Origin: Undibacterium sp.
GTDB taxonomy: Bacteria > Pseudomonadota > Gammaproteobacteria > Burkholderiales > Burkholderiaceae_D
Reading direction: 5' to 3'
Length of the DNA stretch: 45,561 nt
Assembly (NCBI GenBank): GCA_025359635.1
Contig: JANYFV010000370.1
Coordinates: 1 to 45,561, forward strand
Under the pieces are notes generated by a model. That model saw nothing but the letters and a program-made list of their open reading frames with translations, did no database searches and was not told where the DNA came from. Below, piece after piece: positions 2,451 to 5,070 of this stretch (position 1 is its first letter; each line of letters starts with the position of its first letter). Position numbers and translations under genes: made by a program.

Positions 2451-3821
2451 TTAAATACTCTCTGATAATTTAGATTGCACAGAATTAATGCCTATTTCCG
2501 CGCTATCTGTTGCGGTACGTATCGTGATGAAGCTATTCGCTTTGATATCCTGGCTAGTGCGGATGAGCTTGCCCTTGTTGTCGCTCAGAATCGTATAGCC
2601 ACGTTCCAAAGTGCGTTGTGGATTTAATAGTTCAAGCTGCGATGCCGTGGAATTGAGCGTGGTTCTTTGTTGTTGAATCTGACGGGTAAATCCATCGCGG
2701 AGTCGACGCTCTGCAGCATCGAGATGGTGCTGATGCAAGCTCAGTTTGGGTCGGTTTCCGGTCATCCGGGTTTGCAGCTGCGCTAAGCGCGACAGGCCAA
2801 TTTGTACCGGAGTTTGTATCGCATATTGCAATCTTTGCGAGCAGACTTGAACCTGCATGCGTTTGTTGGCGATGCTGGCGATTGGGCTCAGCAGATGGCG
2901 CGCTGTCCAGTCTAGCGTTTGCGCTTTTGTCGAGAGCTGTCTTTGCATGCTTCGCTGTAAATGGCGCTGAAACTGACCAATTTGTGCCATCCATTCTTCC
3001 CTCGTGCGAGTGGCCAGTTCGGCTGCCGCGGTTGGCGTTGGTGCGCGCAGATCTGCGGCAAAATCGGCAATGGTAAAGTCGGTTTCATGGCCAACTCCAC
3101 TAATCACGGGCATGCTGCAATGGGAAATCGTGCGTGCCACGATTTCTGCATTGAACGACCATAAATCTTCGATACTGCCGCCACCGCGACACACTAGTAG
3201 CACATCACATTCCTCACGGGCAGAGGCGGTGGCAATCGCTTGTGCAATTTTTTCGGAGGCGCCATCTCCTTGCACCGGTGTCGGATACAAAATGACGTTG
3301 ATATGCGGTGCGCGTCGTTTTAGCGTAGTCAGCAGGTCACGTAAGGCTGCTGCCTGAAGGCTTGTGACGATGCCTATGCATTTGATGAATGGCGGAATGG
3401 CACGTTTACGCTCGGGATCAAACAGCCCTTCTTTGGTCAATTTTTCTTTTAACTGCAAGAAGGCTTCATACAGGTTGCCGACACCAGCGCGACGTATCGC
3501 CTCGACATTGATCTGGTAGTCGCCTCTTGGCGTATATAAGCTGACCAACGCGCGCACCTCAACCTTGTCGCCTTCGCGCGGAGAAAAATCCACATATTGG
3601 GCACGCCCGCGAAACATCACGGCCTTCACTTGCGCCGCGCTATCTTTCAGGGTGAAGTACCAATGTCCAGACGTGGCGCGGGTAAAATTTGAAATTTCAC
3701 CGGAAACCCACGTCAGTGGTATGTTTCGCTCCAAAAGTTGTGCAACCGCTTGGTTTAGCGCGGAAACTGTGATGACAGAACCCGTAGATAATGGATTTGG
3801 GAGGCGCGAATCAGTATTCAT
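2451..3821 (-). CDS. xseA: Exodeoxyribonuclease VII large subunit
   Basis: 456-residue large subunit of exonuclease VII, which with XseB degrades single-stranded DNA into oligonucleotides in mismatch and damage repair. The N-terminal OB-fold is seen in [27 protein letters not shown] (about residues 19-45) and [10 protein letters not shown]. The catalytic core follows with [32 protein letters not shown] and [29 protein letters not shown], then a long helical, coiled-coil-like C-terminal region (roughly 280-400) and [13 protein letters not shown]. Length matches the family. No clear Shine-Dalgarno is seen before the ATG at 3821. xseB is not in the window. The start abuts the DnaA-box-like region at 3841-4350. 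Confidence 0.96.
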
Positions 3822-3842
3822 AGGGGATGTGGCAGTAAAAGC

Positions 3843-3859
3843 TGTCCACAGAAACGTGG
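3843..3859. repeat. Degenerate copy of the TCCACAGAA hairpin unit
   Basis: TGTCCACAGAAACGTGG resembles the three better copies downstream: CCAC and GTGG can pair around a six-base loop. It lies 22 bases upstream of the xseA start codon and so could fall in its leader or promoter. Confidence 0.45.
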
Positions 3860-4016
3860 TGTGGTCATCAGAATGTCATTAAGTGTGTCAGAAGTCAAAA
3901 GCAACATAAGTGTTTGTTGTAAGTCTTTGTTTTTAATGATGAATATTTATTGCTCAATAATTGGGCATTTTCAGAAAATGCTTATAAATCAAGGACTTTG
4001 GTTTGCTTGGGTCATC

Positions 4017-4048
4017 TTGTGCACAAACTTATCCACAGAAAATGTGGA
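4017..4048. repeat. Repeat unit A: palindrome, perfect DnaA box and hairpin
   Basis: TTGTGCACAA palindrome at 4017-4026, then TTATCCACA at 4029-4037, an exact match to the bacterial DnaA box consensus TTATNCACA. TCCACA (4032-4037) pairs with TGTGGA (4043-4048) around GAAAA. Confidence 0.7.
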
Positions 4049-4155
4049 ATCAGATTCGGATAATTGAGTCTTGGGCTTTTCATTTCTACCTGCTTGATTG
4101 TTTGGCAGTCGCACTTAATGGTATGAAATCATAGACTTAAAAAGTAGTCAGAACT

Positions 4156-4190
4156 TTGTGCACAATCTTGTCCACAGAATCTGTGGAAAA
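4156..4190. repeat. Repeat unit B: palindrome, two DnaA-like boxes and hairpin
   Basis: TTGTGCACAA at 4156-4165, TTGTCCACA at 4168-4176 (one mismatch to the DnaA consensus) and TGTGGAAAA at 4182-4190, whose complement TTTTCCACA fits TTWTNCACA. TCCACA and TGTGGA form a stem around GAATC. Same layout as unit A, 139 bases away. Confidence 0.7.
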
Positions 4191-4216
4191 CTTTTACTTT
4201 CAATCATTATGCCGGG

Positions 4217-4238
4217 AAACTATTTTCAGAAATAGTTT
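4217..4238. repeat. 9-bp inverted repeat
   Basis: AAACTATTT-TCAG-AAATAGTTT, perfect over nine base pairs with a four-base loop, between repeat units B and C. No T-run follows that would make it a simple terminator. Confidence 0.55.
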
Positions 4239-4311
4239 AAGTTCTTTGCTTATTTTGATAGCGCGACTTAAAAACCGCTTAAAATCAAACTGTTAAGAAG
4301 TTAACTCGGAG

Positions 4312-4346
4312 ATATCCACAATCTTGCACACAGAATTTGTGCAAAA
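4312..4346. repeat. Repeat unit C: DnaA-like boxes with altered but still paired stem
   Basis: ATATCCACA at 4312-4320 (one mismatch to consensus), then TTGCACA (4324-4330) pairing with TGTGCAA (4338-4344) around CAGAATT. The complement of 4338-4346 is TTTTGCACA, fitting TTWTNCACA. Relative to unit B the arms have changed together (TCCACA/TGTGGA to GCACA/TGTGC). Confidence 0.65.
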
Positions 4347-4402
4347 CTTTGGTTTGATTGCGCTATTTTAAAAGTTTAAAATAAAAAAATGTAAGCATCC
4401 AC

Positions 4403-4431
4403 TTGCTCACAAGCACACAACAGGCTACATT
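4403..4431 (+). promoter_or_regulatory. Candidate sigma-70 promoter for the exbB-lpxK-kdsB operon
   Basis: TTGCTC at 4403-4408, 17-base spacer, TACATT at 4426-4431; start of transcription would fall near 4438, about 27 bases before the exbB-like start codon. Four of six bases match consensus in each box. Confidence 0.45.
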
Positions 4432-4464
4432 GCAGGGCTAGATTCATACGCTAAGGAGTTTCAT

Positions 4465-5070
4465 TTGTTCGCTATTCTTCAAGCCGCTGGTTGGCCGATT
4501 TACCTTTTACTCGCTGCGTCTATCATCGCGCTCGCGCTCATTATCGAGCGTAGCTTATCGTTGCGACGCCAACGTATACTCCCTAAAACCTTACTTGCTG
4601 AAGTTATCCGCGTGTATCACGCCGGAAAAGTTAAGCAAGAAGTGATTGATCAGCTGGCGAATAATTCACCTTTAGGTAAAGTGCTTGCGGCTGGTCTGCG
4701 CAACGTTAATGCACCGCGAGAAGTGATGAAGGAATCAATTGAAGAAGCTGGCCGTGGCGTTGCCCATGAACTCGAGCGCTTCTTGACTACTCTCGGCACG
4801 ATTGCTTCGCTGGCGCCTTTGATGGGTTTGTTTGGTACTGTCGTGGGGATGATAGAAATTTTTGGCTCACAAAATTCTGCTGGTGCAAATCCTGCGCAAC
4901 TGGCGCACGGCATTTCAGTCGCACTTTACAATACCGGTTTTGGTTTGTTAATTGCGATGCCCGCTATGGTTTTCTACCGGCATTACCGTGCTTTGGTCGA
5001 TAGTCTGGTGGTGGATATGGAGCAGCAGGCAGTCAAGTTCGTCGACACTGTTCACGGCGCGAGAAAATAA
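4465..5070 (+). CDS. ExbB/TolQ/MotA-family proton channel subunit
   Basis: 201-residue inner-membrane protein of the MotA/TolQ/ExbB family, which with its ExbD/TolR partner uses the proton gradient to energise envelope processes. Membrane segments are visible at about 9-28, 108-132 and 150-172. The family signature is TLGTIASLAPLMGLFGTVVGMIEIF, followed by the helix GISVALYNTGFGLLIAMPAMVFYRHY. The start is TTG at 4465, chosen because AAGGAG sits 6 bases upstream and MFAILQAAGW is a normal N-terminus. The ExbD-like gene begins one base after the stop codon. No tonB, tolA or tolB lies here, so whether it serves TonB transport, Tol-Pal or another system cannot be told; placement before lpxK suggests an envelope role. 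Confidence 0.88.
   Translation: MFAILQAAGWPIYLLLAASIIALALIIERSLSLRRQRILPKTLLAEVIRVYHAGKVKQEVIDQLANNSPLGKVLAAGLRNVNAPREVMKESIEEAGRGVAHELERFLTTLGTIASLAPLMGLFGTVVGMIEIFGSQNSAGANPAQLAHGISVALYNTGFGLLIAMPAMVFYRHYRALVDSLVVDMEQQAVKFVDTVHGARK

Follow-up and report, generated by a model that had tools for sequence, protein, structure and literature searches.

The closest described counterparts of the locus reported here are DARS1, DARS2 and datA of Escherichia coli, the organism for which ATP-DnaA regeneration by DARS is worked out in the literature searched. DARS are defined by three DnaA boxes, box I being opposed to boxes II and III (PMC5742627), and the head-to-head pair of boxes I and II is characteristic of these sites and essential for them (PMC10380432). 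In E. coli, DnaA bound head-to-head on boxes I and II frees ADP, with box III helping, and DARS2 depends on IHF and Fis (PMC10380432, PMC8682772, PMC4245941, PMC5742627); DARS1 works in vitro without added factors (PMC5742627). The locus datA, with its boxes 2, 3 and 7 around one IHF site, has that site between boxes 2 and 3 (PMC5835720), and in-line double boxes 2-3 bp apart are the units preferred by DnaA in E. coli cells (PMC11317965). According to the map positions given in PMC4585315, the arm fractions are 0.64 for DARS1, 0.42 for DARS2 and 0.19 for datA. A review reports that DARS-like sequences have been conserved by many species of proteobacteria (PMC10380432), and Kasho et al. 2014 described the DARS2 core as specific to E. 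coli-related gamma-proteobacteria (PMC4245941).

In the upstream regions fetched from MG1655, the boxes of DARS1, upstream of uvrB, start at 208 (plus strand), 222 (minus) and 234 (minus), and those of DARS2, upstream of mutH, at 336 (plus), 350 (minus) and 362 (minus), giving start offsets of 14 and 12 in both loci.

Three tandem DARS-type cores between xseA and exbB

The window, i.e. the whole 45,561-bp stretch analysed, is one contig of a draft Undibacterium genome of 4.5 Mb in 602 contigs. It contains a 643-bp intergenic interval (3822..4464) that is bordered on the left by xseA, coding for the exonuclease VII large subunit (2451..3821, minus strand; NCBIfam TIGR00237, 485.8 bits against a cut-off of 180), and on the right by an exbB/tolQ-type gene (4465..5070, plus strand), which matches the NCBIfam TolQ and ExbB models, all below their cut-offs. 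Among the matches listed, the best named match of this XseA is that of an Undibacterium MAG (78% identity), and the same divergent gene pair is kept in 71 of 80 named xseA loci. No structured RNA was matched by Rfam within the window at gathering thresholds.

The sequence-only reading had described a DnaA-box cluster in this interval, repeated at about 140-155 bases, and had called for its density to be compared with the background. The boxes it named were all found in place: a perfect box TTATCCACA at 4029 (plus strand), the boxes TTTTCCACA at 4182 and TTTTGCACA at 4338 (both minus strand), and one-mismatch boxes starting at 4017, 4018, 4156, 4157, 4168, 4312 and 4322. The stretch 3822-4016 contains no box at one mismatch or fewer. 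The motif TT[AGT]TNCACA occurs 8 times in the interval, where 0.13 would be expected, versus 9 times in the other 44.9 kb (Poisson P about 2e-12), and the strict motif TTWTNCACA 3 times versus 4 in the rest of the window (P about 3e-5). Over the whole window, the strict motif is at chance level (7 versus 6.77 expected from shuffles); a window-wide surplus was therefore rejected, and the signal lies in the clustering of the boxes.

The boxes are arranged in three tandem 35-bp cores starting at 4017, 4156 and 4312, hence 139 and 156 bp apart and spanning 330 bases, in agreement with the repeat first described. In each unit, two boxes run head to tail with a start offset of 12, and a third, at offset 14, is inverted; the order on the minus strand is box I, 5 bp, box II facing box I, 3 bp, and box III in line with box II. 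The core pattern was derived from DARS1, DARS2 and the units of the window, with at most three mismatches allowed, and recovers DARS1 and DARS2 by construction (two mismatches each). By pattern scan, together with geometry for the first two cores, the following were identified, all on the minus strand with box I on the opposite strand: (i) core A (4017..4051; two mismatches), with box III TTGTGCACA (4017-4025), box II TTATCCACA (4029-4037) and a degenerate box I GATTCCACA (4043-4051), (ii) core B (4156..4190; no mismatch), with box III TTGTGCACA (4156-4164), box II TTGTCCACA (4168-4176) and box I TTTTCCACA (4182-4190), and (iii) core C (4312..4346; three mismatches), with box III ATATCCACA (4312-4320), a degenerate box II TTGCACACA (4324-4332) and box I TTTTGCACA (4338-4346). 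Core B is the only full match in the window, the mismatches of core A being in box I and those of core C in boxes II and III. A partial fourth unit at about 3838-3860 (CTGTCCACAG) is too degenerate to be counted.

The three boxes that define DARS, with box I opposed to boxes II and III, are thus present, in full only in core B, whose boxes (4182, 4168, 4156) have the same offsets and orientations as those of DARS1 and DARS2; the start offsets of 14 and 12 are likewise common to the array and both E. coli sites. The core pattern contains one in-line double box. Compared letter by letter, DARS2 (TTTTCTGTGGATAGAGTTGTGAAGAA) and core A (TTTTCTGTGGATAAGTTTGTGCACAA) have 13 letters in common (TTTTCTGTGGATA).

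Beside each core, on the box III side, a consensus scan predicted an IHF-type site on the minus strand, at 3987..3999 for core A (offset 17, one mismatch, AAAGTCCTTGATT), at 4127..4139 for core B (offset 16, one mismatch, TAAGTCTATGATT) and at 4283..4295 for core C (offset 16, perfect, TAACAGTTTGATT). A dyad fitting the Fis consensus lies at offset 50 after core A (3952..3966).

Tandem arrays and single cores among relatives

When the interval was used as a DNA query against 60 genomes, 43 gave a match, including the window's own genome and every one of the 35 congeners covered; some matches extend over no more than about 30 bp, and not all were traced to xseA. Ninety intervals with the divergent gene order were collected, 19 from congeners (some genomes twice) and 71 from the 80 named loci (among the matches listed). 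In Massilia, Janthinobacterium, Duganella, Rugamonas, Pseudoduganella and Undibacterium, the xseA-exbB interval mostly carries 3-9 units, so many Oxalobacteraceae keep the cluster in the same place; a comparison with relatives had been proposed in the sequence-only reading. In brief, cores at up to three mismatches number 3-8 per interval in Undibacterium, 4-7 in 18 named loci of Massilia, 7-9 in six loci of Janthinobacterium (none in one further MAG so labelled), 7-8 in four loci of Rugamonas, 5-6 in six of Pseudoduganella and 1-7 in eight of Duganella. Noviherbaspirillum (three loci) and Herminiimonas (four loci) have 0-1 core each, with no core in two of the four Herminiimonas xseA loci and likewise in several other loci, and among the seven loci labelled Herbaspirillum, four have no core, two have one and one has seven. 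Altogether, 309 cores (at most three mismatches) were found in the 74.7 kb of interval of the 71 named loci (among the matches listed), none in the 705 kb of their flanks, and none in 400 kb of samples from the one-contig congener G016. Core orientation is uniform across intervals, one overlapping match excepted, and cores are spaced by 107-341 bp (median 160 bp; 302 spacings under 400 bp). Some Massilia and Duganella intervals (L122, L136, L119, L123) are 2.1-4.7 kb long, with a G+C near 0.6, and contain extra DNA.

The core geometry was also recovered from box pairs within 40 bp, in tandem units that share ancestry and whose counts are consequently non-independent. Convergent pairs lie at offset 14 in 82 of 268 cases in 20 Undibacterium intervals and in 202 of 281 cases in 65 others, and direct plus-strand pairs at offset 12 in 86 of 128 and 48 of 83 cases, respectively; in Undibacterium, the convergent offset 26, which equals the distance between boxes I and III, accounts for 95 pairs, slightly above offset 14. 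A spacer control had its maximum at (5,3), with 104 matches in the 20 Undibacterium intervals and 287 in the 65 others. Its side peaks in Undibacterium (56 at (3,3), 56 at (4,4), 44 at (7,3), 32 at (5,1), 25 at (5,5)) and in the other intervals (140 at (5,5), 41 at (3,3)) are tentatively put down to overlapping boxes.

In the consensus of the relatives' units, a conserved block 3' of box III fits the IHF consensus. Scoring was performed on 378 units with distinct 80 bp downstream, taken from 83 of the 90 intervals once seven duplicates or near-duplicates had been removed; these units are related by duplication and hence are not independent events. The IHF consensus is matched perfectly in 155 of the 378 units and with one mismatch in 132, and 279 of these 287 sites are at offset 16-17 in the same orientation; one shuffle per segment yielded, at any offset, no perfect and 29 one-mismatch sites in 378. 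For the Fis consensus, 68 of 378 units fit and 24 of 378 do so after shuffling; at offset 49-51 there are 56 fits. These figures weakly suggest a Fis-type site beside the core and give little support to one in every unit.

Outside the array, cores at up to two mismatches are present in 196 of 250 Burkholderiales genomes, most of which have one to three, and the reversed core pattern in none of the 250. Seventy core places were sampled among the matches listed (30 given loci and 40 chosen). Going by the first core, xseA is the downstream gene at 35 of them and priA at 23, with 12 in other positions; one of these 12 (L191) is also an xseA locus, with three cores 135-476 bp from xseA, which brings the distribution to 36, 23 and 11. 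Thirteen of the 70 places, window included, belong to the window's own family group, and of the 57 others, 30 are upstream of xseA, 19 upstream of priA and 8 elsewhere. The single cores upstream of xseA or priA in other Burkholderiales are the same core as that of the array. They usually occur once per place and, unlike the array, 56 of the 57 places have no phased IHF site, an IHF-type site (at most one mismatch, offset 16-17) being found only at L225.

The genome of the window itself has four cores at up to two mismatches, two of them in the window and one between priA and hemE (contig C559, 4529). A single priA-hemE core was also observed in other Undibacterium stretches (L033, 7949; L034, 8169; L035, 7825; L032, 7763), and the priA core is 33-46 kb from oriC in four near-complete Undibacterium genomes. 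The fourth core of the genome (contig C586, 5268; about 2469 in L224) has two mismatches, and neither xseA nor priA was found close to it.

Chromosomal position

In G016, 20 samples of 20 kb give a GC skew that is below zero as far as 1.98 Mb, above zero between 2.205 and 4.43 Mb and below zero once more at 4.655 Mb. The change lies near 2.07-2.08 Mb (10-kb steps, with some noise), where five boxes are found within 1 kb in two repeated modules. About opposite, at 4.50 Mb, is a single dif-type site, located by pattern. The array of G016 is at 3.768 Mb, within one arm and away from both places, and the skew has the same sign on its two sides (+0.084 and +0.056). Matches to the oriC modules were obtained in each of the five other genomes searched, those in G005 and G026 being weak. 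On the arm from oriC to dif, the array is at 0.70 in G016, 0.66 in G015, 0.66 in G026 and 0.47 in G005; in G014, where no dif was found, it is at 0.69 if ter is assumed to be opposite oriC. Both dnaA and dif were located in eight draft genomes of other genera. An ordinary oriC, which the sequence-only reading had already thought less likely and for which it had proposed the skew check, is thus rejected in view of the skew, the dif site and the homologous oriC of congeners.

Some further observations concern the origin region of Undibacterium. The dnaA gene is 82 to 443 kb away from oriC (G005, G014, G015, G016, G026), and twelve fetched dnaA stretches (L001, L021-L031) have merely one to three boxes each. 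The oriC apparently consists of repeated modules, two in G016 (L158, 16740-17660) and three in G014 (2686453-2688298), and those of G016 contain inverted and direct TTATCCACA boxes next to a TTACTATT/TATATATA stretch. In G015, there are 17 PF00308 matches, including two sets of DnaA-like AAA+ ORFs (273 and 290 aa) with seven copies each and identical scores, which are perhaps IS21-type helper ATPases.

Interpretation and significance

The sequence-only reading had seen the interval as a possible locus for replication control or DnaA-dependent regulation, comparable to datA or DARS. The retention of the cluster in relatives supports this, and the box geometry favours DARS over datA. Indeed, the array resembles datA as an intergenic DnaA-box cluster with IHF, but the geometry that DARS1 and DARS2 have in common is absent from the fetched 3-kb datA stretch, in which no three-box core was found at up to three mismatches; identity with datA is therefore considered unlikely. 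The array has the core geometry of DARS1 and a comparable arm position (0.64 for DARS1 versus 0.66-0.70 in three congeners), whereas DARS1 is a single core next to another gene. With DARS2, it shares a place far out on the arm and IHF-type sites on the box III side, possibly followed by a Fis-type site, the IHF-type site standing, as in the DARS2 subtype, at a fixed place beside the core. The offset is unlike that of E. coli: the IHF sites of DARS2 follow the core by about 58 and 74 bp, those of the array by 16-17. In DARS2, the same scan picked up a pair of IHF-type sites, each with one mismatch, at a distance of 3 bp, which agrees with the published IBS1 and IBS2 (PMC4245941). Furthermore, the Fis-type dyad of the array is weak, and DARS2 has one core in 455 bp (PMC5742627), whereas the array has three in tandem and its relatives up to nine.

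Since the defining geometry is present, the array is said to have DARS architecture and, on this basis, most likely works like a DARS; the interval as a whole is probably an amplified DARS-type locus that regenerates ATP-DnaA. The genome encodes Hda (TIGR03420) and IHF alpha, both above cut-off, and a Fis homologue (39% identity over 77 aa). In the proposed mechanism, ADP-DnaA arising from Hda-dependent inactivation would bind each core, and the head-to-head pair of boxes I and II would drive ADP off DnaA, at a time that could be set by IHF bending, perhaps with the Fis-like protein. The apo-DnaA would then take up ATP again, so that DnaA would be recharged by the array late in the cycle. Duplication of an array that is far out on the arm in congeners would help to lift the ATP-DnaA level ahead of the following initiation. 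Having several copies in tandem would increase site capacity and would also titrate DnaA, likely as a side effect.

Titration is also the core of the main rival explanation, that of a titrating or datA-type inactivating locus in which double boxes absorb DnaA or IHF bending between cores promotes ATP hydrolysis. Each unit does contain a 3-bp double box, an arrangement bound in E. coli ChIP-seq (PMC11317965), and successive cores have an IHF-type site between them, as boxes 2 and 3 of datA do (PMC5835720). In G016, the array is the densest DnaA-box site seen, with 9 of the 72 genome-wide TTRTCCACA (40 in the genome for the reversed-pattern control) and 13 TT[AGT]TNCACA in 1 kb versus 0.0875 per kb in 400 kb of samples. 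However, titration needs no inverted box I at a fixed spacing, which the fetched datA stretch lacks, and E. coli datA lies close to oriC, at 0.19 of the arm, whereas the array is at 0.47-0.70 in four congeners; this explanation is considered unlikely. A promoter region in which DnaA boxes couple xseA and the exbB operon to replication is distinctly improbable: the array does fill a divergent interval, most of the 36 xseA places have a core some 165-265 bp away from that gene, and DARS1 and DARS2 are likewise upstream of repair genes (uvrB, mutH), but spacings of 107-341 bp and counts from 0 to 9 are ill-suited to fixed operator positions and the second conserved core is upstream of a different gene, priA.

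Two other explanations have still less in their favour. In a repeat family of another kind, the match to DARS would be coincidental, and duplication does make the counts within intervals non-independent; this is nevertheless very improbable, given that many other families have this geometry at xseA and at priA, mostly as one copy per place, while the reversed pattern is absent from all 250 genomes. A second or relocated replication origin could be imagined from the intergenic DnaA boxes and from the distance of 82-443 kb between dnaA and the oriC place in five congeners, but it is scarcely credible beside the unchanged skew sign across the G016 array (+0.084, +0.056) and the sign change near 2.07-2.08 Mb at another box cluster, with dif about opposite.

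With respect to the amplified DARS-type locus, the core is of a known kind, and its tandem, IHF-phased, multi-core form appears to be new as far as the literature searched shows; neither a DARS at xseA nor a tandem DARS array was found in that literature. Single cores may already be listed in the original DARS paper (Fujimitsu 2009), since the review reports DARS-like sequences in many proteobacteria. It is possible, though this broader proposal is put forward tentatively, that Burkholderiales keep two DARS sites, at xseA and priA, so that these sites would not be a gamma-proteobacterial speciality, and that Oxalobacteraceae have expanded the distal site to as many as nine tandem, IHF-phased modules, the number of which would tune late-cycle regeneration of ATP-DnaA. 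With 0, 1 and 3 to 9 modules occurring naturally at this one place, DARS dosage can be tested against initiation timing, and conserved cores at xseA and priA in Burkholderiales would bring the DnaA recharge cycle to a further order.
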